From: a virus
Virus record (IMG/VR): IMGVR_UViG_3300036979_000430
Span: 1-52,127 of that record
Length of the DNA: 52,127 nucleotides
Reading direction: 5' to 3' (one strand)
The notes under the pieces were generated by a model that saw only the letters and a program-made list of their open reading frames with translations, had not been told where the DNA came from and did no database searches. Positions 20 through 49,018 of the stretch are shown here, piece after piece. A program made the position numbers and the translations under genes. Numbering within the stretch: position 1 is the first letter of the stretch; every line of letters begins with the position of its first letter.

Positions 20-460
20 ATGGCGAATCCCGAACAGTTCCACGAGCTGGTAAGGACACTCCCGGAGTACACCCCATCCGAAGTCCCTCGGCTTGCCCCT
101 GGCGTTACCGAGAACAGTCCGCATTGGATACGGTGGACACCGGCACAGCGCCTAGCTCACGTGGATCGCGTGGCTGATGCCGTGGCCAGGTTGCGTGCTA
201 GTGCCATTGATGACGCCAGCATGATCAACGGGGGTGATGATTCGGTTATCAGCCAACTCAAGATTGGTCGCTTTTTATTTGAAAAGTCGCTGCAGGGTGT
301 TTGGCCTATGAATTTTGACACAATGAAGTCATCCGCCACCTGGGTGCTGCGAAACCCCGCATTGGCAGACGATCTGATCGCTTTGGCCCGCAGCGGTGAA
401 CTCAAGCCGGCGGCGCCTGATCGGGTGGTGGCTGAGTTTGTTGAAAAAAGGGGGGTATGA
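20..460 (+). CDS. Hypothetical protein, possibly 5'-truncated by the window edge
   Basis: I do not recognise this 146-residue protein. ATG at 20 is the first in-frame start, but the frame is open from position 2 (reading HDLAHR before the Met), so the gene may begin outside the window. It has no signal peptide or membrane segment. Residues 41-60 form an amphipathic, Ala/Arg-rich helix and the C-terminus is acidic/basic mixed. Its TGA overlaps the ATG of the methyltransferase (ATGA at 457-460), so the two are probably translationally coupled. Confidence 0.6.
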   Translation: MANPEQFHELVRTLPEYTPSEVPRLAPGVTENSPHWIRWTPAQRLAHVDRVADAVARLRASAIDDASMINGGDDSVISQLKIGRFLFEKSLQGVWPMNFDTMKSSATWVLRNPALADDLIALARSGELKPAAPDRVVAEFVEKRGV

Positions 461-2425: not shown

Positions 2426-4290
2426 CCATCCCAACGCCCCGCGCCGCCCTGGAGCGGTTGCTCGCCAGGCTTGATGAAACAACCGACAAAGATGGTCCCG
2501 TGCCGGCGTGGATGGATTCCTATTGCACTGCTGTCCAGTCCCTGAAGGCTGAGCCGGAACTGGAGGGGCCAAGCCTCAATGATGTTGACGAGCTGTGCGC
2601 CGAGTTTGGGTTTCATCTTGACGGCGACCAGGGCGACGGTTTTGAGATCCTGCGCGACATGATCACCGCCGCTATTGCCCGCTGGCGTGCTCCGGTTGTT
2701 GAGCCCTTCACCCCGCCAGCGTCGGAGCAGGGTGATGCCTGGTGGCACGAACTCATCAGCGAGATTGCCAGGGTTCAGCATGTCGCGCAAGGCGAAGGCC
2801 AAGGGCCACGGTTTGACCTGGCCAAGGCCGTTAAGTTGTCGCGCCGTCCCACCCCGCCAGCGCCGGAGCCGCCCGCTGAATCCCTCGCGGCTCGCCCGCT
2901 ACTGGAGCAGGTATCCCGGCTGGGTCGTATCGGCGCTCCCACCATGAGCGAAATCGTAGTGATCAGCAACCGCGCCGCCGCTTGGCTGCGGCAGAATCCA
3001 CCAAGCCAGCCGGTGGCGATTGAGCCGAGGGGTTGCCCGACGCCAGGGGCCTGTTCGTGCGTTGAACCCACCCCGCCAGCGCCGGAGGTGGGGGAGTTGA
3101 GCACCGATTTTCGCTCTCTGTGTGCTGCTATGTTGTCATGGTGGGGCCTGTTGGCTCTCCCTGAATGCGCAAGGCCACAGGATCAGGCATTGTTTGACGA
3201 GCTGGGGCGACTGGCCCGCGCCGCCCTGAAGGCCGAGCCGGTGGCTACCCCCGCGACGCAAGAGCTTGACGGGGATCGCGTTCAGAAACTGGCCGCGATC
3301 ATCAGGGAGGCGGACCCCGCACGACTGCCCAGAGCATGGTCCCATCAGTTTGCTCAAGCGCTCCTGGCGCACCCAGGTTTTAGCGGCTGCTGCGATGGCC
3401 CCGCCGCCCCGCCAGCGCCGGAGCCGCCCGCCGAAGCCCTTGCCGCCCGCCCGCTGTTGGAGCAGGTAGCTGCAATGGCTGATTGCATCGGCGCCAAGAC
3501 CGTGGGCCAGATCACGGCGATCAGCAACCGCGCTGCCGTCTGGCTGCGGGAGAATCCACCAGGCCGGCCGGCGGCGATCGAGCCGACCCCGCCAGCGCCG
3601 GAGCCGGGGGAGGTGGGGGAGTTGGTGAACTCCCTCACGCTGATCGGCGACGGAATGAATGCCCTGAACCATGAGGCAGATTCGTGGGTCGTCGCCCGCG
3701 CCGCCACCCTGCTCCAGCAGCAGGAGTCCGGGCTGGCCGCCCTGCGGGGGGTGCCAGTGGGTGAGGATCTGCCAAAGCCCAACACCAAGGTGCTTGCGTT
3801 TTACCTCAACAAATTGGGCAAAGGGCGAACCATTTGCGCTATCTGGGTGCCCGCAAAGACGCGAGTAAGCGACAGCGATATTGACGAAGACCTTGAATTT
3901 GAATATGACGATGAAACAGATCAGTTCTACTGGCCTGAGGGCTGGTACGAAACAATCGAGAACTGGGAGGAATTTGGCTATCTCAAGGTTTATGAAGGCG
4001 AGGTGGTTTACTGGCAACCACTTCCAAAGTGGCCCGCCAACGCCCTGCCAGCGCCCCAGGCCGGGGAGGCCCAGCCACCCCACCCCACATTCCTAGACGC
4101 CATTCGACTGGCCCAAGGCTGCCACGACTATTCAGGCGGCCATAGCGGGCAGCAAGGGGAGGCGTTCCAGGACGGCGTCGGCACGGTTGTGGCTGTGCTC
4201 AAAAAGGCAGCAGTCGGGTCGTGGGATTCCCAGACCATGGCGGTGTTTGGTGTGGGGTCAGCGCCTCAGGCTGGGGAGGGGGAGGCGTGA
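2422..4290 (+). CDS. Mosaic protein with duplicated 70-aa modules, Pro-rich linkers and DUF551-like segment
   Basis: This 622-residue protein is built from reusable phage modules joined by PPAPEPP linkers. Residues 1-35 are an ALERL module. Residues ~50-95 (DELCAEFGFHLD to ILRDMITAAIARW) recur in the product at 32834. Two copies of a ~70-residue module follow (LAARPLLEQV, ISNRAA-WLR-NPP). A DUF551-like stretch begins PKPNTKVLAFY and closes with VVYWQPLPKWP. The C-terminal module is FLDAIRLAQGCHDYSGG. The linkers share an almost identical DNA stretch, CCCCGCCAGCGCCGGAG, in five places. The function is unknown; the architecture suggests a scaffold of small interaction domains. It is ATGA-coupled to the gene before and GTGA-coupled to the kinase after. 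Confidence 0.7.
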   Translation: MTIPTPRAALERLLARLDETTDKDGPVPAWMDSYCTAVQSLKAEPELEGPSLNDVDELCAEFGFHLDGDQGDGFEILRDMITAAIARWRAPVVEPFTPPASEQGDAWWHELISEIARVQHVAQGEGQGPRFDLAKAVKLSRRPTPPAPEPPAESLAARPLLEQVSRLGRIGAPTMSEIVVISNRAAAWLRQNPPSQPVAIEPRGCPTPGACSCVEPTPPAPEVGELSTDFRSLCAAMLSWWGLLALPECARPQDQALFDELGRLARAALKAEPVATPATQELDGDRVQKLAAIIREADPARLPRAWSHQFAQALLAHPGFSGCCDGPAAPPAPEPPAEALAARPLLEQVAAMADCIGAKTVGQITAISNRAAVWLRENPPGRPAAIEPTPPAPEPGEVGELVNSLTLIGDGMNALNHEADSWVVARAATLLQQQESGLAALRGVPVGEDLPKPNTKVLAFYLNKLGKGRTICAIWVPAKTRVSDSDIDEDLEFEYDDETDQFYWPEGWYETIENWEEFGYLKVYEGEVVYWQPLPKWPANALPAPQAGEAQPPHPTFLDAIRLAQGCHDYSGGHSGQQGEAFQDGVGTVVAVLKKAAVGSWDSQTMAVFGVGSAPQAGEGEA

Positions 4291-5267
4291 AACAAAAAGT
4301 GATTACCCCTGCAATAGCTAATTGCGCAAGATGCGGCGCAAAAGCTGTAGCTCTTGACTGGAATTTTCGCGATAGGTGGCGGGTTCATTGTGACAATGCT
4401 CACACCTCAACTAAGGAATGTGGGACGGTCCATCGCGCAATATGCCGATGGAATAACGCTCAGGCACGCATCGCCATCGAACTGGAGCAGCGACCATTGG
4501 TGGCGGCGGGATCACCGGCGCCGCCAGTGGCACCCTGCCCCTCATCGGCACCGTCGGCTAAAGGCGTCTTCATCGCGCTAGAGGGAATCGACGGCTGCGG
4601 CAAAACCACCCAGCTACAGGCCCTGCACCGATGGCTGCCCACCAGCGGCCTAATGCCCCCAGGCGCTCGGCTGATAGTGACCCGTGAGCCAGGCGGCACA
4701 GCTCTGGGCCAGGCCCTGCGGAAGCTGCTGCTGCACCCTCCCGCCACTGTCCAGCCAGCGCCTACTGCCGAGCTGCTGCTTTACGCAGCCGACCGCGCCC
4801 AGCATGTTGCCGAGGTGATCCGCCCGGCGCTCGATCGCGGGGATTGGGTGCTGTGCGATCGCTTCACCGGGTCCACCGCCGCGTATCAGGGGTATGGCAG
4901 GGGGCTGGACCTAGAGGCGATCTACGCCCTGGAGTCCATCGCAACCAGCGACATTCCATTCAGTCTGCAGCCCGACCTGACCATCTGGCTGGATGTGTCC
5001 CTCGCCGAGTCCCGCCGCCGCCGTGGTGGCCAACTGGCCGACCGCATTGAGGGGGAGGGGGAAGAGTTCATGGCCCGCGTGGATGATGGGTTCCTGGAGC
5101 TGGCCATGCAACGGGATTGGGCCCGAGTCAATGCTGATCAGCCCGTGGCCGACATGACAAAGACCTGCCGCAACATTATCCGCACCGCACTGGAAACCTG
5201 CAGAACACAGCAGCAGTCCGGTGCTATCCCCCGTTGTCCCAGTTCAGGAAGTAGTACCGGGCCCTGA
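4287..5267 (+). CDS. tmk: Thymidylate kinase fused to N-terminal Lar-like zinc ribbon
   Basis: The kinase part would phosphorylate dTMP to dTDP with ATP, feeding dTTP synthesis for phage DNA. From the GTG at 4287 (GTGA overlap with the previous stop, preceded by GGGGAGG) the protein has 326 residues. Residues ~1-60 hold CARCG, then CD and ECG, and end in AICRWNNA; this is the pattern of restriction-alleviation (Lar-type) zinc ribbons. Residues 98-305 are the kinase. Its P-loop is EGIDGCGKTT, the substrate loop is TREPGGT, DRFTGSTAAYQG binds the nucleoside, and an Arg-rich lid (RRRRGGQLADR) follows. A ~20-residue Pro/Ala linker joins the two parts. The fusion is unusual; the standard enzyme is about 205 residues. 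Confidence 0.88.
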   Translation: MKQKVITPAIANCARCGAKAVALDWNFRDRWRVHCDNAHTSTKECGTVHRAICRWNNAQARIAIELEQRPLVAAGSPAPPVAPCPSSAPSAKGVFIALEGIDGCGKTTQLQALHRWLPTSGLMPPGARLIVTREPGGTALGQALRKLLLHPPATVQPAPTAELLLYAADRAQHVAEVIRPALDRGDWVLCDRFTGSTAAYQGYGRGLDLEAIYALESIATSDIPFSLQPDLTIWLDVSLAESRRRRGGQLADRIEGEGEEFMARVDDGFLELAMQRDWARVNADQPVADMTKTCRNIIRTALETCRTQQQSGAIPRCPSSGSSTGP

Positions 5268-5442
5268 CGGTTCACCTATCTACCGCATTTGGGCTGGTCC
5301 CCATTGCGTCGAGGCCCCATCCGGTGGAGCCGCATGGCAGAAGCTGCGGGCCCTATGCAGGGATATTGGCATCACTTTGGCGGTTACGGGCGTTGCGGAG
5401 CCCACTGCAGGGCCCTCGCCGGTGCCTGATCCAGGTGTCTAG
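5221..5442 (+). CDS. Small hypothetical protein
   Basis: A 73-residue product starting with GTG inside the 3' end of the kinase gene (47-bp overlap, different frame). Residues 12-55 (PGPDGSPIYRIWAGPHCVEA, WQKLRALCRDIGI) look like a compact domain, followed by a Pro-rich tail. It is the last gene of the plus-strand operon. Its stop overlaps by 4 bp the stop of the convergent peptidase gene, leaving no space for a terminator between the two operons. Confidence 0.5.
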   Translation: MLSPVVPVQEVVPGPDGSPIYRIWAGPHCVEAPSGGAAWQKLRALCRDIGITLAVTGVAEPTAGPSPVPDPGV

Positions 5443-6161
5443 CTGAACAGCCACGCCCACCCGCTGGCGGGGCCCTCAACCAGCCATCTGGGATTCAAGT
5501 TCCGGTAGCTGTAGCGCTGCCCTCGTCCAGAGTCTTCGCCAATACGGCTCCAGCCACCGGCCACCAAATTGATCTCCCCGAAGGGATCGTTCACGATCCA
5601 ACTGCCGCCCTTGGTGGCATCGAACCCGTAGCAGGGTATCCAATGACCCCCGCCAGTCGGGGCGGTAACAGGACCATCCTGCAAGACGCCCATGCACAGC
5701 GGTAGGCCTGCCCTGATCTCTGCCTGAGCTTGTGAAGCCGTGCAATTTTGCACAAATCTTGCTTTGACGCCTAACGCTTTTAGTGCTTGCTGATGCGCAG
5801 CTTGGCTGGTGGTGTCCCCATAGCAATTGACCACCTTCACGTAGTCAAGATCATCACTGATCCCGCCCACCCCAAGGTACGCCAGGCACATTGCCAGGCT
5901 TGACGATTGGCACTGCCGCCATCCTTCGGGGCCGTTGTCCAGTTGCGGAAACCACGGGAAACCAGTCAATGGATTGGTGGCCTTTGGTATCAACGGTTCC
6001 TTGGGGGCAGGGTCGGCCCTGAACAGCTCCGCAAATTCCGCCACTTCAGACCCCGTCAGTTGCTCCTGCAGCCAGTTCCATGCCGCTTGCTGATGCGGAA
6101 GGATCGGGCTGGTGGTGGCCAGGGCTGCCGCGTCCAGCCTGATTGTCGGAGTTGGTGCCAT
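5439..6161 (-). CDS. C39-type papain-like cysteine peptidase, candidate endolysin
   Basis: A 240-residue protein. Residues 70-195 fit the Peptidase_C39-like fold: nucleophile C84 in RQCQSSSLAMCLAYLG, H173 in GGHWIPCYGFD, and D192 in VNDPFG. In phages such domains act as cell-wall peptidases. Lying last in the leftward operon, after small membrane proteins, it is the best endolysin candidate. The N-terminal 60 residues (LPHQQAAWNWLQEQL, AEFAELFRAD) are helical and may be a binding domain. There is no signal peptide, so export would rely on a holin. No lysozyme, amidase or transglycosylase was seen elsewhere. A structural or processing protease is the alternative. Confidence 0.75.
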   Translation of the reverse strand: MAPTPTIRLDAAALATTSPILPHQQAAWNWLQEQLTGSEVAEFAELFRADPAPKEPLIPKATNPLTGFPWFPQLDNGPEGWRQCQSSSLAMCLAYLGVGGISDDLDYVKVVNCYGDTTSQAAHQQALKALGVKARFVQNCTASQAQAEIRAGLPLCMGVLQDGPVTAPTGGGHWIPCYGFDATKGGSWIVNDPFGEINLVAGGWSRIGEDSGRGQRYSYRNLNPRWLVEGPASGWAWLFS

Positions 6162-6517
6162 CGCGGTTTACCTGCTGCCCTAGATTTCCCGGCAAGCTCA
6201 GCAACGCCAGAGACACCGTGCCGACCGCCGCTTTCTCCTGGAGCATTCAGCGGGTATTTGCTGTGCCAGGTAAGCGCGGTCTCGGCATCTTGGGCCGCGC
6301 CTTTGACCTCCTGCCCGGTGGCACAATGCTTAACGCGCATTGCATCCATCGAGGGGTTGTTGGGGTGACGGTCAAGATAATCAGCACCACCAGGGCCGAG
6401 ATCGTCAACTCTGAGCCGGTGATCATGACCAGGGGTGACACGCTGCCTGATGACCTAGTGCCGTGGCAGGAAGAGCTGCTGAAGGCTTTCCAGGGCCAGC
6501 CGGCCTAAGGTCAGGAG
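6162..6517. other. 356-bp gap without a confident gene
   Basis: Three short frames compete. On the minus strand, 6247-6441 encodes 64 residues with one hydrophobic helix (LTISALVVLIILTV) and a basic tail. A second minus frame to 6056 reads HPNNPSMDAMRVKHCATGQEV and overlaps the peptidase start. On the plus strand, 6143-6508 ends DDLVPWQEELLKAFQG. None has a convincing ribosome site. A small membrane protein of the lysis cassette (spanin or antiholin type) is the most plausible content, given the operon direction. Confidence 0.35.
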
Positions 6518-8197
6518 TTAAACGCCAAGCCTTGCCAGCAGTGAAGAATCAGCGGGCAGGTTACGGCGCACCAGGGCGTCGATGCTTGATGTTGCGTTGA
6601 TCAGCTCTAGCCCATAGGCGGTAAGGGTTTCGGTTGTATAAATTGCTTTTGAAAGAAGCGGATTGGTGTAAATTTGCGTCAAGGCGTCATAGGCGACCAT
6701 GGTAAGCATTAACGATCCGAACAAAGCGCCAGGCTGGGGATCCTCAGCAAACAGGCCCGCCACTAACTCTAGCCCATCAATGTTTCCATAAAGAGTTTCT
6801 AGCTTTTGACGCAAGTCGTTGTCTTGGGTAAGTTCCGTGAAGTCTTTTAGCTTAGCAAGGCCAAAGTTTTGGCGGTAGCTATTGTAACTCTGTAGCCTAA
6901 AATCTCTGCCCATTTCGATGGTCTGATATTCCGCCCCCATCAAGAAATCGGGGTTGTTCCCTAGGCTGATACGTCCCGCAGTCTGAACCGATGCGTTGCT
7001 GACGATGCTGGCCAGACCTTCCGCCTCCAGTAGCTCATTATTCCACCGATAGGATGAATGCTGCACGGTTGCGTCATTGACAATTAACTGGTCCGGAACA
7101 AGGCCATGCCAGCGATATAGCAGGTTGAATTCAAGTGCTATCCAGTTGGTGCGATACCAGGGCTGACTCTCAGCAAAGCTGGTATCAAACCGAAACAATG
7201 AATCCCCTGTTATGTGATTTATGTAATCTTCAATAGTCAGCTTTAGCAGTAGGCAGGTATTTATCATGCGTGCCGTTTGGAATAGTCGCTCGTCATCATC
7301 TCCCCAGTTAAGGTCAGGGATTCTGCTCAGTTCTTGGCAGATGCGGTTGTGCTCCCGCAAAAAAATGGTGCTCAGAGCCACATACCCTACCGATGAGTTC
7401 CCCCGATCAAGGCCGGTTGCATAGAGCCTATCAAGCCTGGCATTACGTTGCGCCGTGGTCAGGGTGCCAGGGGGGAAGCTCTTGTCTAGGGCTGTCTTTA
7501 CCCATTCGGTGCTGCCGTGCGGATACAGCCCCTTGCCAGGGATCGTATTGCCACTGGAATCCAAACAGCTATATTTAGCCTTAACTTGCCATTCGCCTGC
7601 TTCATTTCGCTCTCCTAGATAGTCGGGATATTCCTCCCTGTTTATGATTTGAGAGCTTAGGCGTCCTCCAGAGTGACTTCGTAAACACCGAGCTTCGTGC
7701 TCATACAACCCATATATCTGACAGAGATCAACATCATGGTTGGAAGTATTTTTGCGTCGGTCGTCGGGGTCGGTGCGCAGAACGCTGTCGGTGAACCATT
7801 GGGCGAAGAACATGAACAGAACGGATGAGCGATCCGTCTGCATTGCCTCACCCCTGGCGAAGAGGGACGTGATAGGGCCCCATTTGCCCGGTCCGCTTAG
7901 AGCGTCGTCAGGTAGTGCCGCAGTCCAGCTCTCGCAGGCAGGGGGTAGGTGACGCGCAGAGAATTGGCGATCTGTCAGCGATGGCCAGGATGTGTAATCT
8001 GAAACCGGGCCATTGGGGCCACCTTTTACAACCGCCACAGGAGACCAAAGGCTGAACGGCCTGGGGCGGGCGGTTGTGGAGCTGGCCAGCAGGTTGGTGA
8101 TGGATCGGTTGATCCACGCTCCTAGCCAGGGGATTGCCGAGGCCCGCACGAGGAGCCTGCGCAGCGACCGCGACCGTATCAGAACCGACAAGAGCAT
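6518..8197 (-). CDS. Cyclooxygenase-like (animal-type) haem peroxidase / fatty-acid dioxygenase family
   Basis: A 559-residue member of the animal haem peroxidase family, closest in motif order to prostaglandin H synthase. It has a hydrophobic N-terminal membrane-binding stretch (IPWLGAWINRSITNLLAS) and then YTSW, where cyclooxygenases have YKSW. FFAQWFTD (Q133, D137) follows, with the HDVDLCQIYG loop and FLREHNRIC (280s). Next come LTIEDYINHITG and NLLYRWHGLVPD (Y361, W363, proximal H364), and the C-terminus reads SYNSYRQNF and LYGNIDGLELVAGL. The catalytic Tyr and proximal His positions are kept. The distal His of FAQHFTH appears to be Asp137, and the aspirin-site Ser is replaced by Ala. 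ATG at 8197 is chosen because AGGAGA lies 7-8 bases upstream; an ATG at 8245 lacks this. In the family, haem oxygenates or peroxidises fatty acids; the activity here is unproven. Confidence 0.88.
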   Translation of the reverse strand: MLLSVLIRSRSLRRLLVRASAIPWLGAWINRSITNLLASSTTARPRPFSLWSPVAVVKGGPNGPVSDYTSWPSLTDRQFSARHLPPACESWTAALPDDALSGPGKWGPITSLFARGEAMQTDRSSVLFMFFAQWFTDSVLRTDPDDRRKNTSNHDVDLCQIYGLYEHEARCLRSHSGGRLSSQIINREEYPDYLGERNEAGEWQVKAKYSCLDSSGNTIPGKGLYPHGSTEWVKTALDKSFPPGTLTTAQRNARLDRLYATGLDRGNSSVGYVALSTIFLREHNRICQELSRIPDLNWGDDDERLFQTARMINTCLLLKLTIEDYINHITGDSLFRFDTSFAESQPWYRTNWIALEFNLLYRWHGLVPDQLIVNDATVQHSSYRWNNELLEAEGLASIVSNASVQTAGRISLGNNPDFLMGAEYQTIEMGRDFRLQSYNSYRQNFGLAKLKDFTELTQDNDLRQKLETLYGNIDGLELVAGLFAEDPQPGALFGSLMLTMVAYDALTQIYTNPLLSKAIYTTETLTAYGLELINATSSIDALVRRNLPADSSLLARLGV

Positions 8198-8213
8198 TAG
8201 CTTTTCTCCTGTG

Positions 8214-8423
8214 TCACGGATTGTGAGTGCGGTTTGGTACGGCAATGCCTAGCGCTGTGGTGGCTGCGCCGGTAAGGGCAACGATTGCAACGGTGCGGCT
8301 TTCGGCGCAGGCCCTGCCGCCAGCATGTTTGGTGCAATTCCACCAGTCAAGAACGCCAACTCCTGCGGCAGCCAGTAAGCAGAAGCCGGCAAACCCAAGA
8401 CACCAGCTTACGTAGCGTGTCAC
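8214..8423 (-). CDS. Two-helix membrane protein, holin candidate
   Basis: A 69-residue protein with two membrane helices, residues ~7-26 (WCLGFAGFCLLAAAGVGVL) and ~42-60 (VAIVALTGAATTALGIAV), joined by a short Cys-containing loop (CTKHAGGRACAESR). GTG at 8423 is chosen because it overlaps the upstream stop (GTGA) and has GGAGG just before it. Position between a coiled-coil membrane protein and, two genes on, a peptidase fits a holin. Small size and topology are the only other support. Confidence 0.6.
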   Translation of the reverse strand: MTRYVSWCLGFAGFCLLAAAGVGVLDWWNCTKHAGGRACAESRTVAIVALTGAATTALGIAVPNRTHNP

Positions 8424-8881
8424 CCCCTCCACCTCACCAGTGGTGGTGGCAGGATAAGGCGGGAATCCTTTTCTGGATGGCGTTCAAGCCAGGCGGGCAG
8501 GCCAGCAAACAGCGCACCCGCAACCGTGCCTACAACAGCAGCCAACAACGCATAAGCAAATACTTTTTTATCTAATTCTTCGACCTTTTCAACGGTAGTT
8601 TCGTAATTTTTTAGCCTTAACTGAATCTCCTGGATCTCAAGCTCATGTTTATGTGATTGGTTTAGGTACTGCGTTTGTAGCGCTTGATGAGCTTCTGCCG
8701 ATTTGTCTATCTTGTCTTTGATCTCTTTTTGCCCATCTTCTACTCGCTCAAGTCGATCACCCTGCTTCGCCACTGCATCAAGCTTTTCGCATAACCTTGG
8801 CAGCAATGCAACCAATAAAGACACACCTTCTGGGCTTGGCGTCTGCACTCCTTGTAGACCTTGCAGTAAATCTTCACTCAC
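8420..8881 (-). CDS. Coiled-coil protein with C-terminal membrane helix (XhlA/holin-accessory-like)
   Basis: This 153-residue protein starts at GTG 8881, seven bases after GGGGGAGG. Residues ~20-110 are a long charged coiled coil (CEKLDAVAKQGDRLERVED, HELEIQEIQLRLKNYE). One membrane helix follows (VFAYALLAAVVGTVAGALFA), then a short polar tail. Coiled coil plus C-terminal anchor is the layout of haemolysin XhlA-type holin accessory proteins. It overlaps the 43-aa membrane gene upstream and the holin candidate downstream, forming a compact lysis-type cassette. Confidence 0.65.
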   Translation of the reverse strand: MSEDLLQGLQGVQTPSPEGVSLLVALLPRLCEKLDAVAKQGDRLERVEDGQKEIKDKIDKSAEAHQALQTQYLNQSHKHELEIQEIQLRLKNYETTVEKVEELDKKVFAYALLAAVVGTVAGALFAGLPAWLERHPEKDSRLILPPPLVRWRG

Positions 8882-9005
8882 AATCCAACCTCCCCCGCAT
8901 CCAGCGCCGCACACCCGGCACCGCCGTCAGAATACCCCAGGCAGGCAGAAACAAAAGCAGATGCCACGCTGTCATCGCCAGTAGATCGTCAGGGATTAGT
9001 CTCAT
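8874..9005 (-). CDS. 43-aa single-helix membrane protein
   Basis: This short gene runs from ATG 9005 to TGA 8874. It has a short polar N-terminus (MRLIPDDLLAM) and one hydrophobic helix (WHLLLFLPAWGILTAV). The tail is strongly basic (RRWMRGR). It overlaps the start of the next gene by 8 bp in another frame, typical of coupled lysis genes. It could be a small holin, pinholin or antiholin. Position and topology are the only evidence. Confidence 0.5.
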   Translation of the reverse strand: MRLIPDDLLAMTAWHLLLFLPAWGILTAVPGVRRWMRGRLDCE

Positions 9006-9086: not shown

Positions 9087-10436
9087 CTAATTTGCTGGCA
9101 GGACATCTTCAGAAACCTTGACCGAGATGAACCCATCATTCGGGAACGTCTCAACCCTGCCATCGGCATAGGTCACCCGGAACTCGGCCTCATACACGCC
9201 AGCATTGGCGGTTTCGCCCGTTTGCCACTGGTATTCCACCGTTGGCGTGCCAGTTGCGGTCACTACCACCGCCGGAGCGTCAATCACAGTGGCCCCACCC
9301 CTTGACCGTCGCGCTCTTACTTGAAACTCCACGGTCGCACCGGTTAATACCACCGTTGCCGGCTTCAGCTTGTAGCGGAGTGATGGAGATGTATCATTCC
9401 GCTTGATGTAAAACGTGTCCACTGAAACCTCGTTCACGGTGAGCCCGCCATCGCGGGACATAGCCAGTTTGCCGCCATTTGCTGAATCGCCAGGGAAGGC
9501 AAAGCGAGTGGCAATCAGGCTCGGCCCACGCCCGACAACTATCGCCACGCCTGACGCTGTACCTGTAGCGCTTGCAGTGGACCGACCGACCCCGATTGCA
9601 CCAGCTAATCCAAACGCAGCGCCTAACGCGGCCACGATCGCAGCACCTTGCCCTGCTGCCGTTGCAACGCCGGTAACCGTGGCCGCAAAGGAAAGGATCC
9701 CAGCGCCCTGCCCTGCCGCCGTGGCAGCGCCAGAGGCAATCCCGACAACAACCAGTATTCCTGTACCGCTTGCCGATGCCTCCGCAAAGCCAGCAGATGA
9801 CCCAATTCCGGCGGTAACCCCTCCGCTAGGGCTTTGCCCCTGTGCTGTTGCCCCACCCGTCGCCGATCCGGCGGCAGCAGCAATAGACGCGGCCTGACCG
9901 CTTGCAGATGCCACACCTGCCGAAGACCCAGTGGCGACAGCGCTGGACTGGCCTTGGCCAGACGTGGTCGCAGCGCCGCTCGAAACACCGATCCCGACTG
10001 CCACCGATCCACCAATGGTGCCGTCACCGATCGCGGTTGCCGTGCCTGCCGCCGATCCAGTCGAAGCGGCAGTGGACAGCCCCTGGCCAGATACTGCAGA
10101 CGATCCCGCCGAAGACCCGGTAACGGCGGCAACAGGCTGGCCCTGGCCCGATACTGCGGCGCTGCCTGCCGACGATCCAACGGCGCTTGCGACAGATCCG
10201 CCAACCGCGCCGACACCGCTTGCCGTTGCGGCACTTGCCGCTGTCGCATAGGCGGCGGCAATAGACGCACCCTGCCCTGTAGTTGTGGCGGCGGCAGCGG
10301 TTGAGCCCGCAGAGTTGACTGTGCTAGCCCCCTGCCCCTGGGCGCCGGCAATACCCGCTGAAGACCCTGCGGCGCTGGCTATTCCGGGTTCGCCACCTGC
10401 CCCTGTACCGAGTTGCGGTACCCTGATGCGCAGCAT
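9087..10436 (-). CDS. Repeat-rich tail appendage protein with BppU-like C-terminal domain
   Basis: A 449-residue protein. Residues ~15-300 are imperfect ~22-residue repeats of Ala/Gly/Ser with the theme GSSAG-A-ASGQG-S-AAA, an extended fibrous segment. The last ~125 residues are a compact beta domain (TSPSLRYKLKPATVVLTGATVEFQVRAR... EAEFRVTYADGRVETFPNDG), the pattern of the BppU-type N-terminal immunoglobulin-like domain of baseplate proteins. It is likely a tail-fibre or baseplate component reaching the host surface. The repeats are recombination-prone and generate long antisense open frames that I disregard. It precedes the lysis cassette. Confidence 0.7.
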   Translation of the reverse strand: MLRIRVPQLGTGAGGEPGIASAAGSSAGIAGAQGQGASTVNSAGSTAAAATTTGQGASIAAAYATAASAATASGVGAVGGSVASAVGSSAGSAAVSGQGQPVAAVTGSSAGSSAVSGQGLSTAASTGSAAGTATAIGDGTIGGSVAVGIGVSSGAATTSGQGQSSAVATGSSAGVASASGQAASIAAAAGSATGGATAQGQSPSGGVTAGIGSSAGFAEASASGTGILVVVGIASGAATAAGQGAGILSFAATVTGVATAAGQGAAIVAALGAAFGLAGAIGVGRSTASATGTASGVAIVVGRGPSLIATRFAFPGDSANGGKLAMSRDGGLTVNEVSVDTFYIKRNDTSPSLRYKLKPATVVLTGATVEFQVRARRSRGGATVIDAPAVVVTATGTPTVEYQWQTGETANAGVYEAEFRVTYADGRVETFPNDGFISVKVSEDVLPAN

Positions 10437-13592: not shown

Positions 13593-14513
13593 TCAGGCTG
13601 TCACCGGTGCATTGGTGATCCCGTAGGCGCGAGCAGCACTGCGCCCGTTCATGATTGCTAGGCCGATTGACCAGTCGATTCGCGTGCGATCAACAGGAGC
13701 ATCGGAGACTTCCCCGAACTCCTTGATGTCAATCCCGTAGCCACCAGCAGAATCAGGGCCTTGGATGCCGGTAACTTCCATGTCGCCATAGGACACGCAG
13801 TAGATACTGGTGCGGTCGCTGCTGGAAGCTTCGGTGAAACCTTGGATCTGAACGTTCTGGGCGTTGGTGTCAGTAACAACAATGCGAGCATCGTTGTAGT
13901 AGGTGACCCGACGGCCAAAGGCATCCTGCTCATAAGTCATGAACCCACCGATGGCGGAATTACGGCTGGCAGCCGTAAGGCGCCGCCGCATCGTTTTGTT
14001 CATGTGCAAGACCTTGTTGTCCCCATCAACCGCGTCAATCAGCTCATCAAGACCAGTGAGCGGAAGGGCGCCGTTGATATTAATGGCCTGGGAGCAGTCG
14101 GTCGGGAGCCGCTTTCTAAGGCCGTCAAACGACCGAGGATCAACCGCAACATCGCCGTTGATCATGTAATCCTCAAATGTAAGGCGCATTGAGCGCACTT
14201 TCATCGTGATCTGATCAGCCCTGGCTTGCCGGCCCTTGTTTTTGATGATTTGAATATCCACGTCGATGTCTCCACCGAAGTAGGACAGTCGTTCGTATTG
14301 AGGATTGATGACGCCATAGCTGGGGTCGTAGGTTTCGTTTAGAGCACGAAAACCAACGCCAGGCAGTTCATCTTCGGTGCCGTAGTCCAGTCCGCCCATT
14401 ACATTGGTAAAGGGCACCAGACCGATCATCTCGCTTTCAGCAAGACCGCGAATAACGGCCACCCGCTTCTGATTTTCATCAGTTTTGGCGGCCTCCAGAA
14501 TAGTGAGTCCCAT
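13593..14513 (-). CDS. Major capsid protein
   Basis: A 306-residue protein consistent with an HK97-fold capsid protein of the class lacking a large N-terminal delta domain. It has a helical start, then LVPFTNVMGGLDYGTEDELPGVGFRALN, a long central helix region and MNKTMRRRLTAASR. Near the end are a beta-rich axial-type segment (GRRVTYYNDARIVV) and SIYCVSYGDMEVTGIQGP. It follows a scaffold-type gene, the usual partner. No Shine-Dalgarno is visible before the ATG. The 150 bp upstream carry repeats described separately. Its position downstream of all tail genes is unusual. Confidence 0.8.
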   Translation of the reverse strand: MGLTILEAAKTDENQKRVAVIRGLAESEMIGLVPFTNVMGGLDYGTEDELPGVGFRALNETYDPSYGVINPQYERLSYFGGDIDVDIQIIKNKGRQARADQITMKVRSMRLTFEDYMINGDVAVDPRSFDGLRKRLPTDCSQAININGALPLTGLDELIDAVDGDNKVLHMNKTMRRRLTAASRNSAIGGFMTYEQDAFGRRVTYYNDARIVVTDTNAQNVQIQGFTEASSSDRTSIYCVSYGDMEVTGIQGPDSAGGYGIDIKEFGEVSDAPVDRTRIDWSIGLAIMNGRSAARAYGITNAPVTA

Positions 14514-22180: not shown

Positions 22181-25027
22181 TCAGCGGATTCGCTGCATCG
22201 TCTGCTGCAGCTTCAGGCTGGACCCGTCCCCCCGAACCCCTACCGATACGTTCCATGCTTTGCGCCGCAGCTCAGCTACCTCTTGGCTCAGGTTTCCAAC
22301 CGCCATCGCTAGATGCGCCATCGCCGGATCGGGCCCCGCACGCAGCACCCCCGCACCGCCCAGGGCCCCGGATTCCTTCAGCCGGCTGGTCACGTGGGCC
22401 GGGATGACGGTGCCCTTTGAGGGTGCCGTCCAGAGGCTGTTCATGGGGCGGTTGATCAGGGATAGGGCACCCGATGCCGACAGGAACGACTCCTGCCCCA
22501 GACTCATCCCGCTCGGGCCGTCATTGATTCGGTAGGTGCCGCCCGCATCCACCGGGCCACCAGTGAACCTCGCAGGGGGCAGGCCGGCGGCGGCATTCAG
22601 TGAGTTGTAGAACGATCGAGCAGCATCGGCAGCGTTGCTCATGTTGCTGGCCAACCCTGCGGTCTGGCTCCTGGCCTGGCCCGTAGCTTTGGCGGCATCA
22701 CCGATGAAGCCGGTGATCTTGTAATACCCCTCACCGGTGTCCTCTACCTGTAGGCCGGTGTCACGGACTAGGCCCTGGAAGGTTTTGGCTTGGTTCAGGG
22801 GTGTCAAGAACGAGTCTTGGTAGCTGTTGAACTGCTCCCTAGTGCCCCTGGCTGCTTTGAAGGTGCCATCAGCGGCTAGCGCCAGATTCTTGGCGGCAGC
22901 TTCGGCCTTGATCTGGTTCTGGGCGGTTTCGTTTGTCACCCCAGCGATCAGCGACTCTACCGCTTGAATTTTGGTCAGAGTTTCTAGCTTGGTATTGGCG
23001 GCTTGTAGGCTGAGTTGAGCTTTTTGTATTTCAACTTCTGCCTTTGCGGCGGCTACGGTATCACTTGCTAATTGGGCAGCTTTCAAATCTAAAACAGCCC
23101 TTTCTAGGTCTAGCTTTGCGCTGCTCGCCGCTGAACCGGCGTCAAGCTGTGCTTGCTCTTGCTGCAATGCCAGCAGAACCCTTTGCAACTCCTGCTGCTG
23201 TACCAATGCGTTGTACTTGAACGTAAGGGCAGCCCTGTCAATTTCGTCACCTTGACGCTTGATTGCATTTATCTCACCTTCACTTGCGCCGCGTTGTTGC
23301 GCTTGCTGTAGTTCGTATGTATTGCGATTCCGAATAATACCAAAACGCGAGTCTTCCAGGCCGATCAGCGCCTGGCCTAGGTTGATACCTGCCTGGCTGA
23401 CCTTTACCTGTTGATCAATTTGCGCCTTGGCAAGATCACTGTAGGCTCCTGCGAGCTTCCTGGCGTTTTCGTTGGCGACTTGATCCGCTAAGTTCTGGCT
23501 TCGCTTGTTGCCAAGGATCTGCCCTGCAATCACTTCTTTTTCTTTCTCTTTTGCGGTAATCTCAGCTTGCGCTTGTTTTTGTTTATCAAGCTCTGCGTTT
23601 ATTTCTTTGTTGCCGTCAAGCAACTTGTCAAGTCCAGGTATTCGTGAAAGCTCAGACAATCCCCGAAACGGGTTTAACAGTTTTTGCAATCCTTCACCAA
23701 CAGGCGTTGCAAGAACCTTGCCAATATTTGACCCTGCTATTTCTGCTAATTTTGCTGCAATAGAAATAGCCTTGGCAAGGTCAGAAAATTGTTTTGAAGC
23801 TCCGGGTAGTGCCGTATTAACTTGTCCGGCTAAGTTTTTGGTGGCATTAACAACCTGATTGAATCCGCTTGCTATTGTTTCTGATGCAATTTCGCTGGCT
23901 GCTTTCGCTTGACCGGTTTTTGTTATTTGGTTATCAAGCAGCTTGTTGTAGGTCTCAAGATCGTTCAGGATGGGCTGCAACGCAGTTTGGCCTTCGATAT
24001 TAAATAAAATCGCCAATTTATCGGCAGTGCCCCCCCCCTTTGCTTTGATCTCTTCAAGAATACCGCCTAAACCCTTGGCCTTTAGGTTTGCAAAATCAAA
24101 GCTAATTCCCAGTTGACTGGCTAATGCCTTGGCCTCTTCCGTTGGCTTAATGATTGAGCTAAGTGCTTGACGCAAGCCAGTAAATGTCTGCGCAATGGGT
24201 ACTTTCTTTAGCGTATCTGCCGCAACTGCGGCATTTAGTTCTTGATAAGAAACGCCAGCGGCTGCCGCAAGGGATGCAAGGTTGCCTATTTGTTCACCGT
24301 ATTGGGCAACAGTAATAACGCCATCGTTTTGCGTTTGAATGAAGCTATCAACAATCGCTGTAGCATCTTTTGCGGCTAACCCGTAAGCATTGATAACACC
24401 TGATACGGCTTCAGATACAACCCCAAGTTCGGCAAAGCCTCCTTTTGCGCCTAAAGCAGATGCGCGTAAAATTTCGACGTTTTCCGCTGTTGAGCTAAAA
24501 CCGCTAGACGCTACGTCGTATGATGCTTTGAGTAAATCAGCTTGGCTTACATTATTGTTTAGCTCATTTGAGAGACCCAGTAGGGCTGAGCTTAATTCTT
24601 TAGAGTTAACCCCAAGCGTGCGAACCGCCGCCCCTGCGGTGTCAAGTTCGGTGACAGCTTGACCAACAAAAGTGATTGCTTGATATAGGCCAATAAACGC
24701 GGCTGCCTGCAAAGCCACGCCTTCTACAGCCTTGCTAAAGCCGTTCATCGCGGTGGCCCCGCCTGCCATGGCAGCATCTACCTGCGCCTGCGCCTGCGCT
24801 ATTTGCCTCTGCGCTGCGACAAACTCCTTAGAGCCGATGACCGACTTCTCCAAGGTCTGATTTAGCTCATTCAGCCGGCCACGCAGCCCGGTGATCGTCT
24901 GGTCGCCGCTGCTAAACCCTTCCTTGAACTGCTGCCCCGCTTGCTTCCCCGCCTGCCCGATCTGCCGCGAGGCATCGAGCACGCCCTTCACATCGGCGGT
25001 AACCCTGACGACCCACTCGTTTGCCAT
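22181..25027 (-). CDS. Tail tape measure protein
   Basis: A 948-residue, helix-rich protein that would set tail length and occupy the tail lumen. Residues ~1-120 are coiled coil (QAGKQAGQQFKEGF, QRQIAQAQAQVDAAM) with a hydrophobic segment near 105-130. Residues ~130-330 match the TP901-type minor-tail core (SNELNNNVSQADLLKASYDVAS, VISEAVSG-type turns, GVINAYGLAAKDATAIVDSFI). A long charged coiled coil spans ~470-720. By the usual ~1.5 angstroms per residue the tail would be near 140 nm. It begins one base after the upstream gene's stop. Confidence 0.88.
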   Translation of the reverse strand: MANEWVVRVTADVKGVLDASRQIGQAGKQAGQQFKEGFSSGDQTITGLRGRLNELNQTLEKSVIGSKEFVAAQRQIAQAQAQVDAAMAGGATAMNGFSKAVEGVALQAAAFIGLYQAITFVGQAVTELDTAGAAVRTLGVNSKELSSALLGLSNELNNNVSQADLLKASYDVASSGFSSTAENVEILRASALGAKGGFAELGVVSEAVSGVINAYGLAAKDATAIVDSFIQTQNDGVITVAQYGEQIGNLASLAAAAGVSYQELNAAVAADTLKKVPIAQTFTGLRQALSSIIKPTEEAKALASQLGISFDFANLKAKGLGGILEEIKAKGGGTADKLAILFNIEGQTALQPILNDLETYNKLLDNQITKTGQAKAASEIASETIASGFNQVVNATKNLAGQVNTALPGASKQFSDLAKAISIAAKLAEIAGSNIGKVLATPVGEGLQKLLNPFRGLSELSRIPGLDKLLDGNKEINAELDKQKQAQAEITAKEKEKEVIAGQILGNKRSQNLADQVANENARKLAGAYSDLAKAQIDQQVKVSQAGINLGQALIGLEDSRFGIIRNRNTYELQQAQQRGASEGEINAIKRQGDEIDRAALTFKYNALVQQQELQRVLLALQQEQAQLDAGSAASSAKLDLERAVLDLKAAQLASDTVAAAKAEVEIQKAQLSLQAANTKLETLTKIQAVESLIAGVTNETAQNQIKAEAAAKNLALAADGTFKAARGTREQFNSYQDSFLTPLNQAKTFQGLVRDTGLQVEDTGEGYYKITGFIGDAAKATGQARSQTAGLASNMSNAADAARSFYNSLNAAAGLPPARFTGGPVDAGGTYRINDGPSGMSLGQESFLSASGALSLINRPMNSLWTAPSKGTVIPAHVTSRLKESGALGGAGVLRAGPDPAMAHLAMAVGNLSQEVAELRRKAWNVSVGVRGDGSSLKLQQTMQRIR

Positions 25028-39263: not shown

Positions 39264-40760
39264 TTAGTCCGAATCCTCCCCCAGCTCCACCTCATCCAGC
39301 GGTGTGGTGGTGTCGTCCCTGCCTGGCGTTGGGGCCCCCATCATCGGCCGCTCCCGGTTGATCCTGGCCATTTCATCGCCCACGCTGTTGGTTGACTTGT
39401 TGAACCCACCACGCTGCAGCGCCTCGACAGCGCTCTCCTGGCTGATCAGCTCGACGCCACCGGCCAAGGCCTGCAGTGCGGCGGCACCCTGCGCGTCCAG
39501 CGGGGCGGCGAAGGCGTTTTCATCCATGGTCAAGCCGGCGCCTACCGCCAGCTTCTCGCCGGTGTAGAGGCACCAGATAGCGAAAATGCTTTGCATCACC
39601 GACTTCTTGCGCTCGCCCATCGCCTTAATACTGACCTGGGTGCGGCCTCCCTCAAGCTGTGATTGGGTGGCGGTCTTGGCGATCTTGCTTTCCCCCGTCA
39701 AGAATCCCAGAAGTTGCTGATCAATCAGCTCTTTCACCTCCTTAAGCTGCTCCCGCTGCTCGGCCAGTGACGTAGCCGCAGGCTCGCGCCAAAAGAAGTC
39801 GCCGTCCTTGTCAACCCTGATGACCGTGTTAGGTCCAATCACCAGCGGGGCGGCAGCCTGCCCATCCATCGACGGCAGCCCACCTTTCTCGACCGGCACC
39901 GGCATGGCGCACTTGTGCGTTTTCTCCTTCAGATCGCTTCGCATCTGGTAGTACTCGATGCAATGCTCCACCACCTGCCGCAGGGGGAGCGCACCTTGGC
40001 CGAAGCCGGCCTTCTCGGCGCTGTACCAGACCACTGGGCAGATTTTCAGTGGCTGCTGCTTGGAGTCCAGATACTGCCCGTCGTCCACCTTCTGCATTTC
40101 CATGGAACCATCAGCACGCTTCACTAACCGGTAGAGCGTCCACTTCCCAGGCTCGATCACCCGGTAGCGCTCCTCGTACTCCACCCCAAAACCGCCATCC
40201 TCGCTATCAACTTCCGCCCATTCCAGGAACGTGCAACGGGTCACCACCTCAGCCGAATCCACTACGTCGGTCTTCCAGTTCAGACAGGTTGCGCGGGTGC
40301 GGCTGACCAGGTACGGGCGCCGCCTGAGTGCTGCCTCAGTGGCCCCATCGGTGGGATTGCCGCTTGGCATCTCCACCAGGATCGGGACGGCGCCATCGCG
40401 CAGGCACAAGGGGTCCACGGTGAGCCAGAAGGCTTCCAAGGAGTTACCCTCTAGGTCTACGTTGTCTTGAACCGCCTCAAATGTTGCCGGCGGATCCTTC
40501 AGCTCGGAGCGCGACAGCACCCCCGCGAAACCTTCCAGGCCAGCCCTGAAAAAGTCGCTGAACACAGCGCGACCCAATCGGCCCTCATAGGCGGTAGGTG
40601 GCTCGGCTGGCTCCGGCGGCAAATATTTGCGCTTGACACCATCACCACGCAGGCAATACCAGGCGTCATGCGCACGCTCTAGGTCTTCGTTGTGCTCCCG
40701 CAGTACCGGGTGCTGGAAGCTCGGCAGCTTGGGGTCAGTACCAGAATGCTTCGACTTCAC
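39264..40760 (-). CDS. Portal protein (DUF4055 type)
   Basis: A 498-residue protein matching the DUF4055 portal class. It has HDAWYCLRGDGVKRKYLPP, DFFRAGLEGFAGVLSRSEL and TVDPLCLRDGAVPILVEMP. CPVVWYSAEKAGFGQGALPL and VEHCIEYYQMRSDLKEKTH lead into a late helical hairpin (AEQREQLKEVKELIDQQLLG). The portal forms the dodecameric DNA gate and the docking site for terminase. The start is GTG 40760; a GGAAAGCT copy (40788-40795) lies between it and the sigma-like gene upstream. Confidence 0.85.
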   Translation of the reverse strand: MKSKHSGTDPKLPSFQHPVLREHNEDLERAHDAWYCLRGDGVKRKYLPPEPAEPPTAYEGRLGRAVFSDFFRAGLEGFAGVLSRSELKDPPATFEAVQDNVDLEGNSLEAFWLTVDPLCLRDGAVPILVEMPSGNPTDGATEAALRRRPYLVSRTRATCLNWKTDVVDSAEVVTRCTFLEWAEVDSEDGGFGVEYEERYRVIEPGKWTLYRLVKRADGSMEMQKVDDGQYLDSKQQPLKICPVVWYSAEKAGFGQGALPLRQVVEHCIEYYQMRSDLKEKTHKCAMPVPVEKGGLPSMDGQAAAPLVIGPNTVIRVDKDGDFFWREPAATSLAEQREQLKEVKELIDQQLLGFLTGESKIAKTATQSQLEGGRTQVSIKAMGERKKSVMQSIFAIWCLYTGEKLAVGAGLTMDENAFAAPLDAQGAAALQALAGGVELISQESAVEALQRGGFNKSTNSVGDEMARINRERPMMGAPTPGRDDTTTPLDEVELGEDSD

Positions 40761-42862: not shown

Positions 42863-43300
42863 CTACTTCTGATGGGTGCCTTCAACGCCGCGATCCATTC
42901 GAGCGCGGGTGCGGTTGTGCAGATGATTTTGGGCGGCCTCAAGATGGGTTAAGGCGGCGGCATTTTCAAAGCAGTTGTAAGGCCCGGCCTGAAAAGAACG
43001 AAGGCGATCAATCAAGATCGCAAGCAATGCTGTCTCGGTGATGCCGTTGACGCCTACCTCATTGATAGGGCCGTTTTGAAACAAAAAAGGGAATACGCTC
43101 GGCCCTTTATCTGAGAAGCCTATGAAGGCGGCCGAAGGATTGTTCCTGGGATTGAATCCACTGATCATATAAAAGTGATGGGCCCCGCCAGCGCCGGGAG
43201 CATCTTCAACCGTGATCTTGAGCTTGTCGTTAGCGGGGTTGACGATGTGGTCGGTGAGTTCGCGGGTCATGGGTGTGCCCTGGGTGGGTTGGGTGGTCAT
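42863..43300 (-). CDS. Acb2/Tad1-like cyclic-nucleotide sponge (anti-CBASS/anti-Thoeris candidate)
   Basis: A 145-residue protein. The last ~50 residues (AGPYNCFENAAALTHLEAAQ, HLHNRTRARMDRGVEGTH) match the helical-hairpin domain of Acb2/Tad1-like proteins. Known members bind immune cyclic nucleotides and block host CBASS or Thoeris signalling. The N-terminal ~80 residues (KLKITVEDAPGAGGAHHFYMI, FLFQNGPINEVGVNGITETALLAI) form an extra domain common in phage homologues. ATG 43300 overlaps the terminase stop; ATG 43270 (MTREL) is an alternative. It would act in the infected cell's cytoplasm. Confidence 0.78.
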   Translation of the reverse strand: MTTQPTQGTPMTRELTDHIVNPANDKLKITVEDAPGAGGAHHFYMISGFNPRNNPSAAFIGFSDKGPSVFPFLFQNGPINEVGVNGITETALLAILIDRLRSFQAGPYNCFENAAALTHLEAAQNHLHNRTRARMDRGVEGTHQK

Positions 43301-44865
43301 CGAAAACCGGGAATGCTGGATCGCCGCCTAGGCGGCGGCTCCGACCGGGCCGGCGGGACGTGGGTGCCGTGGCCGTAGGTGGCGGTGGTGACCCTCATCG
43401 GGCCGGTGCTGGCGCAGAAGTTGAGGGCCTGCGTGGTTTCATCCACTAGGTCGTCAAAGGTGCCGGAAGGGAAGGCCAGTAGCTGGCCCACGTACTCTGC
43501 CAGCCACGGGGCATGGCGCGGCAGGAATACGCGGCCCTGACGGAACAATGGCGAGGCGGCTTCAGCTCGGGCGGTTTTACCGCCAAGGGGGTTGACGGCA
43601 TGAACAGCGCAGCCAGATTCGCGCTTGAGGGTGTCAATGATCGCTGATCCATTGGCCTTGTCTTCGATCAACAGCTCATTGAAGCCCCACACCGGCTTCA
43701 GTAGGCGCAACAGGTCGAGGGTGTCATTGAAACCCATGCGGCGGTTCACCTGATCAATCCTGAACATCCCTTCCTGGGTTTGCAGCCATAGGCCGATGCC
43801 AACCATGTCGCTGCCGACCGAATCTTTGAAGGTGGCGTCCACTGAGGCCAACTTGCGGATGCCGTACTCAGGCAACTTGACATCCCCCTCTTCCCCCTTC
43901 TGGCCTGGCAGCAGGAAGTACCGCAGGGTGTCGCGGCTAAAGATCGTGCCAGCGCTTTCGGTTGGTGCCTGCTGATAGATCGCCTCCCAGTCACGGCGGG
44001 GGGTGTTGGCCCGCTTGCGCTCGATCCAGGTCTCATCAAAGCGGGTGGGGTCTAGTGCCTGGCCAGGGGCCCGGTCGTCCCGTTCACTGGTGACGGTACG
44101 CGGGAAGGGTTTGATGGTGTTGGCGGCCACTGCCTGGATTGGCAGGCTGACTACATGCCAGGGTTCGCATTGCGCTTCGAGCCCTTCTTTTTCCAGCTCT
44201 TCGTTTTTGGCCAGCAGGTAACCGATCAGGTCGTTGCTATGCCAGCGAGTGTGAACGATCACCACGGCGTTACCGGGCTCTTCCCGTGTTGACAGGACCG
44301 AATCCCACCAGGAGTGAACCTGCCGGCGCCAGGCGGCGGAATCGGCCATCTCGCGGGACTTGATCGGGTCATCAACGATGATCAGATCGCCAGGGTTACC
44401 GGTGCCTCCCCCGACGCCAGCGGTCCACAGGCCACCGATGCCGGAGGTCCCCCACTTCTTGACGCCACCGGAGGTAGGGGAGAGTGCGCCACCTGAGGCG
44501 GTGAAGTAGTCGCGGGCATCCTGGCTAAAGCCTTCGGCCAGGGTGGCGGTATGGCAGCCGATGCCGACCGACTTGTTTGGATACCGGCGTAGGAAGTAGC
44601 CAGGCAGGAAGATCGAGAAGATCGTGGACTTGTAATGGCGCGGGGGGAGTTCCACCATGAGGCGGCGCAGCTCACCATCGGCAACACGCTGGCCCAGGGC
44701 CACCAGGCGGTAAGTGTGGGGGCTCCAGGGAAAGGATGGGCAGACCGAGCGGATGTAGTCCTCAAAGCTGCCCACGATGGGGGGTTGAGTCTTGCTGGCG
44801 TTGGCGGTGCGCTCCAGCTCCAGCATTGCGAGGCGTGCGGATGCTGTGGGGGCGCGGGTGATCAC
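43297..44865 (-). CDS. terL: Terminase large subunit
   Basis: A 522-residue packaging motor. The ATPase part has MVELPPRHYKSTIFSIFLPG (a variant Walker A), DLIIVDDPIKS (Walker B) and AVVIVHTRWHSNDLIGYLL (coupling motif). The nuclease half has SVDATFKDSVGSDMVGIGLW, LLIEDKANGSAIIDTL and DDLVDETTQALNF, supplying the acidic metal ligands. It cuts and translocates concatemeric DNA into proheads through the portal. It is ATGA-coupled to genes on both sides. Confidence 0.93.
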   Translation of the reverse strand: MITRAPTASARLAMLELERTANASKTQPPIVGSFEDYIRSVCPSFPWSPHTYRLVALGQRVADGELRRLMVELPPRHYKSTIFSIFLPGYFLRRYPNKSVGIGCHTATLAEGFSQDARDYFTASGGALSPTSGGVKKWGTSGIGGLWTAGVGGGTGNPGDLIIVDDPIKSREMADSAAWRRQVHSWWDSVLSTREEPGNAVVIVHTRWHSNDLIGYLLAKNEELEKEGLEAQCEPWHVVSLPIQAVAANTIKPFPRTVTSERDDRAPGQALDPTRFDETWIERKRANTPRRDWEAIYQQAPTESAGTIFSRDTLRYFLLPGQKGEEGDVKLPEYGIRKLASVDATFKDSVGSDMVGIGLWLQTQEGMFRIDQVNRRMGFNDTLDLLRLLKPVWGFNELLIEDKANGSAIIDTLKRESGCAVHAVNPLGGKTARAEAASPLFRQGRVFLPRHAPWLAEYVGQLLAFPSGTFDDLVDETTQALNFCASTGPMRVTTATYGHGTHVPPARSEPPPRRRSSIPGFR

Positions 44866-46769: not shown

Positions 46770-46948
46770 TTGGTGGTGGGGGTGATGGGTTCGTAGATGA
46801 CGCGGGCACGGTGCTGAGCGATCTGGCGTAGGTCCGTCCAGAACGGTGCTTCGTGATCCGGGGGCAGGATCAACGCCTCGGGGACGCCAGCGGTGTTGCG
46901 CACGTTGAGGATACGCAGGCCCCAGCCGGGGGTCTTGGGGGTGGTCAT
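46766..46948 (-). CDS. Small hypothetical protein
   Basis: A 60-residue protein (GWGLRILNVRNTAGVPEALIL, FWTDLRQIAQHRARVIYEP), ATGA-coupled to dcd downstream and to the gene upstream. A compact alpha/beta sequence; no family recognised. Confidence 0.5.
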   Translation of the reverse strand: MTTPKTPGWGLRILNVRNTAGVPEALILPPDHEAPFWTDLRQIAQHRARVIYEPITPTTK

Positions 46949-47202
46949 GGCTGGGGCAATACGTCGGGCGGGCTGACGCGCAACCAGGCGGTTTCCATAT
47001 CCCGCCCAATGTCACGCACACCGCGCCATTGGGTGTTCTTGGGCTTGGTCACACTGCGCAGCCTGGCGAGTCCATTGTCGATCTTGTCAACCTGCCAATC
47101 CTTCAGGCGCGGAGATCGCCAGACCTCGCCAAGGCGGAAGCGGTCGGCAGGGGGTGGGGCTTGAGTTTCGCAGGGGTTCATCAGCCAGTCAGGGGTGAGC
47201 AT
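46945..47202 (-). CDS. Small hypothetical protein
   Basis: Up to 85 residues (RFRLGEVWRSPRLKDWQVDK, GLARLRSVTKPKNTQWRGVR, MDTAW-like end written METAWLRV). The strand-rich, basic core with repeated Trp could be an OB- or SH3-like fold. Start at 47202 or 47181. The upstream gene overlaps by 14 bp. Confidence 0.5.
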   Translation of the reverse strand: MLTPDWLMNPCETQAPPPADRFRLGEVWRSPRLKDWQVDKIDNGLARLRSVTKPKNTQWRGVRDIGRDMETAWLRVSPPDVLPQP

Positions 47203-48978: not shown

Positions 48979-49018
48979 AATCCAAAGGCAAAGAATTAAA
49001 GGGCAAAAGGGTAAAGAA

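Follow-up and report, generated by a model that had tools for sequence, protein, structure and literature searches.

The window, as we call the whole stretch of DNA analysed here, is a virus record of 52,127 bases with terminase, portal, capsid, tape measure and endolysin genes, and it encodes on its minus strand (6518..8197) a probable haem fatty-acid dioxygenase of 559 amino acids. According to Pfam and COX-2 matches, an AF2 model and alignment, this protein very probably belongs to the bacterial 10S-dioxygenase (10S-DOX)/cyclooxygenase (COX)-like clade. The best overall explanation, which we consider fairly probable, is that the gene is a horizontally spread cargo of freshwater cyanophages, encoding a membrane-bound 10S-DOX-like dioxygenase whose hydroperoxides would aid damage to the host membrane.

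The gene and the predicted structure of its product

The open reading frame is intact, comprising 559 codons from an ATG at 8197; the protein would have 575 amino acids if an upstream TTG were the start. Residues are given here in P0001 numbering, which adds 16 residues. The strong Shine-Dalgarno sequence described in an earlier note on this DNA is present as AGGAG (~8206..8210, minus strand), 8 nt before the ATG. The protein matches the Pfam family An_peroxidase (E=1.1e-39) and human COX-2 (E=5.9e-60 with the single sequence and 1.3e-105 with the family profile), and its AF2 model reached a pLDDT of 90.9 and a pTM of 0.91. The earlier note had also proposed a comparison of structures; in a Foldseek search of the PDB, the folds closest to the model were COX-2 and COX-1 (E ~1e-33, TM ~0.75-0.8), whereas MPO and LPO matched it far worse. 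The intact frame, these matches and the model together bear out the claim of a full-length animal-type haem peroxidase. Three helices at the N-terminus of the model (residues 8-24, 26-35 and 39-54; overall ~8-54) are predicted to bind the membrane in a monotopic manner.

Assignment to the bacterial 10S-DOX-like family

The residues that matter for the assignment are Gln149, Asp153 (distal), Arg281, Tyr341, Tyr377 (catalytic), Trp379, His380 (proximal), Val517 and Ala521. In an alignment of 42 sequences, comprising the phage copies and bacterial relatives, Tyr377, Trp379 and His380 of the FxxxY and YxWH motifs are invariant. Asp153 takes the place of the distal histidine (FTDS) in all 42, a count for which it was partly selected, as the genome-scan pattern included AQWFTD; the distal aspartate is also found in plasmid relatives recovered by tblastn without this pattern. 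Ala521, at the position of COX Ser530, is invariant as well. The central YIxxIT and terminal DA-x-x-Q motifs are present in the phage protein, as is Arg281 at the position of COX Val291 (arginine in 35/42), and the COX Gly526 position is occupied by Val517. The carboxylate anchor of COX, Arg120, is replaced by Leu53 at a position that varies within the family. None of the COX-defining residues Arg120, His207, Gly526 and Ser530 is kept in the phage protein.

These features resemble those of a characterised Nostoc 10S-dioxygenase, which has the motifs FTDSF, YIxxIT, FxxxY and DA-F-x-Q, alanine at the Ser530 position, a branched residue in place of Gly526 and, distinctively, an arginine at Val291, and which turns oleic and linoleic acids into 10S-hydroperoxides (PMC13049297, a 2026 review). 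The clade-typical aspartate and alanine, the 10S-DOX signatures and the loss of Arg120 thus point to a bacterial COX-like dioxygenase and not to a cyclooxygenase. The earlier note had correctly read the YRWH motif, FAQWFTD with aspartate at the distal histidine and alanine at the aspirin-site serine, but its cyclooxygenase label does not hold, since all four COX-defining residues are absent and the two substitutions are typical of the clade. For the same reason we rejected the view of the protein as a COX with odd substitutions: distal aspartate and alanine at Ser530 are normal for bacterial 10S-DOX enzymes. By analogy with the characterised Nostoc enzyme, fatty-acid dioxygenase activity is likely. 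The COX fold, the predicted membrane-binding helices and a probable role as a fatty-acid oxygenase, all put forward earlier, are therefore supported.

Distribution among cyanophages and evidence for exchange

Five different pattern sets returned the same eight IMG/VR contigs besides the window; these come from other metagenomes and carry the dioxygenase at 82-87% identity, and no more distant viral homologues were returned. With nine contigs in IMG/VR, the window included, carriers are rare, which implies that any benefit to the phage must be conditional. The nine represent two unrelated cyanophage backbones, one PSS2/S-CBS2-like and one S-LBS1-like. Group A, with a GP7-family capsid, consists of the window, L003 and L010; group B (L004-L009) has, where sequenced, a phrog_15 terminase, a phrog_21 portal and other capsids. 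In the window, the major capsid protein (13593..14513, minus strand) is 45% identical to that of cyanophage PSS2. PSS2, S-CRES and S-CBS2 cyanophages are among the nearest annotated relatives of the portal protein (39264..40760, minus strand; phrog_145) and the large terminase subunit (43297..44865, minus strand; phrog_38; nearest Synechococcus phage S-CRES3 and PSS2). The group B terminase is 67% identical to that of the freshwater Synechococcus phage S-LBS1, and each of the two backbones has close relatives among picocyanobacterial phages. The dioxygenase is much more similar between the two groups than their backbones are. Contiguity of the gene with phage DNA, which the earlier note had left to be checked, follows from the nine contigs of independent metagenomes with consistent phage neighbours; it is confirmed that the reading frame is real, has a COX fold and lies inside an authentic phage contig.

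One contig (L096/L192) has a capsid 99% identical to that of the window and cleanly lacks the dioxygenase: its two-transmembrane (two-TM) gene is followed directly by a convergent gene, the pattern of a single-gene insertion. Because the flanks join there, the inserted cargo can be placed at approximately 6509..8213, essentially the ribosome-binding site and the reading frame. The slot is empty in 14/16 spanning contigs of group A (the window counted among the 16) and in 12/17 of group B, where the carrier rate is biased upward, three of the carriers having come from the enzyme search. Among the phage copies, dN/dS is ~0.10-0.16 for most pairs by a simple Nei-Gojobori estimate. The allele of L010, a group A contig, has 96% DNA identity to that of L004 from group B and 80% to that of the window, with a window-like N-terminus. 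This pattern shows that alleles recombine between the phage lineages, which in turn implies shared hosts. Taken together, these comparisons indicate that the gene is an optional but functional cargo under purifying selection, and the empty sites in close relatives support the earlier suggestion of a cargo gene.

Cellular origin

A phylogeny with bacterial homologues, also proposed in the earlier note, nests the phage clade among Synechococcus genes: in the maximum-likelihood tree, the phage copies group together (100/99) within a larger clade (100/100) that apart from them holds only Synechococcus genes. The nearest homologues are those of Synechococcus CS-1325, J7-Johnson and Tobar12-5m-g, which we take to be freshwater strains; they have 64-74% identity and the same motifs. 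Unlike the phage-borne copies they are chromosomal, two of the loci clearly so by their neighbour genes. The gene is rare in the Synechococcus family: 400 genomes yielded three full-length homologues and a handful of fragments. In one of the three, the J7-Johnson copy (L017:130-1803), an in-frame TGA may mark a pseudogene or be an error of sequencing. The best explanation of the tree is that a Synechococcus-type picocyanobacterium was the donor of the phage gene.

Gene neighbourhood

Two genes upstream of the dioxygenase, the holin-like genes of the earlier note, encode proteins with hydrophobic segments, which are plausibly of holin type. The nearer one (8214..8432, minus strand) encodes a putative holin-like protein of 72 amino acids with two hydrophobic segments, and its homologue adjoins the dioxygenase in 5/9 carriers (the window, L003, L006, L007 and L010). 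The other (8420..8914, minus strand) encodes a coiled-coil-like protein of 164 amino acids with one C-terminal hydrophobic segment, and each of the nine carriers has a homologue of it upstream of the dioxygenase. The evidence that relates the two-TM gene to A28 of S-LBS1, which lies beside the lysozyme of that phage, is only suggestive (hmmsearch 3e-5 with seven proteins; hhalign probability 10%). Upstream of this cassette, a protein rich in Ala, Gly and Ser (9087..10436, minus strand), probably tail-fibre-like, is long, repetitive and poorly conserved save for its C-terminal ~110 residues.

On the other side, a C39-like peptidase (5439..6161, minus strand) matches the PHROG endolysin family phrog_10051 (E=5e-52), in agreement with the C39 neighbour named in the earlier note. 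Between it and the dioxygenase lies, in the window lineage, the convergent gene (6218..6508, plus strand; GTG start, 96 amino acids), whose frame is conserved in nine relatives, both carriers and non-carriers, and which sits at the boundary of the late region; the earlier note had overlooked it. A minus-strand membrane reading frame at 6247-6441 was rejected, as stops interrupt it in both L096 and L128 whereas the plus-strand frame is conserved. The statement that the genes run in the same direction up to the peptidase therefore does not hold. In group B, the dioxygenase lies within the structural module, between the tail-fibre/coiled-coil genes and the tail terminator; an endolysin is near it only in the backbone of the window, across the convergent gene. 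A group B relative (L152) has a C39-like reading frame ~9 kb downstream, and in S-LBS1 the lysozyme is ~9 kb from the slot, which there holds an integrase (L228:10085-10939); this position may be a cargo hot spot. The earlier description of a lysis-type cassette thus stands only in part: a holin-like neighbour in five of the nine carriers and the C39 endolysin downstream fit it, but the convergent gene interrupts it and group B carries the gene in a structural module. The location in group B and the interrupting gene argue that the common theme is a late region by small membrane-type proteins and not a lysis operon.

Elsewhere, the window encodes a tail tape measure-type protein (22181..25027, minus strand; PhageMin_Tail), a phage sigma factor (40808-41920, minus strand), a C5 cytosine methyltransferase (457-1329, plus strand), a thymidylate kinase (4221-5267, plus strand) and a dCTP deaminase (46083-47021, minus strand). 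A further protein (48769-49767, minus strand) contains a formylglycine-generating enzyme-like (FGE-sulfatase) domain (E=1e-42); it may be a receptor-binding or diversified protein of the C-type-lectin fold.

Proposed function and alternative explanations

From its position, the dioxygenase gene would be transcribed with the late structural genes, and late expression at a membrane is likely on this ground. The N-terminal helices would dock the enzyme onto the host membrane. As in the Nostoc homologue and COX, peroxide-activated haem would generate a Tyr377 radical. A C18 unsaturated fatty acid, oleic or linoleic, would lose an allylic hydrogen to this radical and, on addition of O2, become a hydroperoxide. 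That the hydroperoxides help to injure the host membrane or make it permeable as infection ends is a guess, as is any benefit to the phage; signalling or competitor exclusion may be the benefit instead. We propose only tentatively that an oxylipin-forming haem dioxygenase serves cyanophages as a membrane weapon late in infection, its hydroperoxides, made from host lipids, setting the time of lysis or completing it, or else acting on neighbouring cells as signals or poisons; direct help in lysis is no firmer a proposal.

Rather than acting in lysis, diffusible oxylipins might act outside the cell, inhibiting competitors or grazers or excluding superinfecting phages. The formation of 10S-hydroperoxides from oleic or linoleic acid by 10S-DOX (PMC13049297) is consistent with this, as is the reported change of oxylipins on viral infection of diatoms (PMC11123003). 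The exchange of alleles between two phage lineages, with the shared hosts it implies, points the same way, but no downstream lyase or synthase was found in the phage, and we regard this explanation, although it is the chief alternative, as unlikely.

Less likely again is that the protein, instead of oxygenating fatty acids, works as a true peroxidase and rids the phage of peroxides, above all under light-driven oxidative stress. Cyanobacterial hosts have a high oxidative load, the Pfam family is named An_peroxidase, and some bacterial relatives adjoin catalase-like genes. However, the distal histidine of COX and mammalian peroxidases is aspartate here, which makes peroxide detoxification less likely; Tyr341, Tyr377 and the membrane helices, which a plain peroxidase does not need, are retained, and the MPO and LPO folds fit far more poorly than COX.

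It is very improbable that the protein is packaged or enzymatically dead and has a structural or membrane-anchoring role, as the position between tail-fibre and tail-terminator genes in group B might suggest, because the catalytic residues are invariant, dN/dS is 0.10-0.16 across the phage copies and close relatives exist without the gene. An assembly chimera or host contamination, which the cellular origin of the gene and its rarity in phages might suggest, was rejected as having a negligible probability, given that nine contigs of different metagenomes agree in their phage neighbours and that the phage copies form a clade of their own.

Novelty and significance

The dioxygenase was not found by tblastn in 50,697 annotated phage records (INPHARED), and no PHROGs family matches it. 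The premise that no phage-encoded cyclooxygenase is known thus holds, in that annotated phage records contain no homologue and the gene is not already described there. In the open-access literature we found no earlier report of a phage COX or oxylipin gene; subscription papers could differ. The enzyme family is known, and its use as a recombining cyanophage cargo is new within the reach of these searches. Animals, fungi, plants and bacteria are known to carry out oxylipin chemistry with COX-superfamily enzymes, but no annotated phage was found to do so. If the late membrane weapon is real, it would be the first enzyme of the COX superfamily encoded by a phage and would give phages direct access to oxylipin chemistry. 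With a conserved, recombining and selected copy present in two unrelated cyanophage lineages, one can now test whether enzymatic oxygenation lets phages alter the lipids of their hosts; lysis, competing phages and the chemistry of freshwater plankton might all be affected. The gene is also an example of cargo exchanged between phages that share a host. Its product, carried by viruses of freshwater cyanobacteria, is a bacterial relative of the human enzyme that aspirin inhibits.

Comparison with known systems

Among viruses, the alpha-dioxygenase/haem peroxidase enzymes of the giant viruses Yasminevirus and Orpheovirus belong to the same fold superfamily, but they have only 13-16% identity, represent a different subfamily and occur in viruses of eukaryotes. 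S-LBS1, a cyanosiphovirus of Synechococcus TCC793 from Lake Bourget, has tape measure, tail and portal homologues in common with group B in addition to its terminase, but carries its integrase, and not a dioxygenase, between the tail fibre and minor tail protein U.

With animal PTGS1/2 the phage enzyme shares the fold and the counterparts of catalytic Tyr385, Tyr348, Trp387, proximal His388 and Gln203, but not those of Arg120, His207, Gly526 and Ser530. The profile alignment begins at residue 58 of the COX-2 chain, past the N-terminal part in which the EGF-like domain lies.

Compared by motifs, the phage enzyme is close to the linoleate 10S-dioxygenase of Nostoc punctiforme (B2J5P4), with the FTDS aspartate, YIxxIT, FxxxY, the terminal DA-x-x-Q motif, alanine at Ser530, arginine at Val291 and N-terminal membrane helices in common. 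The two differ at the Gly526 position (valine in the phage, isoleucine in Nostoc) and the Tyr504 position (valine and phenylalanine, respectively). A separate catalase-related lyase processes the Nostoc linoleate product, although such a partner is not obligatory (PMC13049297). The phage-borne copy has no neighbouring gene of this kind, and neither a catalase-related lyase nor another hydroperoxide-processing partner was found in the window or the viral loci. P450-like genes adjoin the bacterial relatives L014, L022, L071, L077 and L095, which suggests oxylipin operons that have not been described. Catalase-like or P450 genes adjoin several bacterial relatives of the phage dioxygenase, and as enzymes of these kinds process hydroperoxides, we count this neighbourhood in favour of a dioxygenase.
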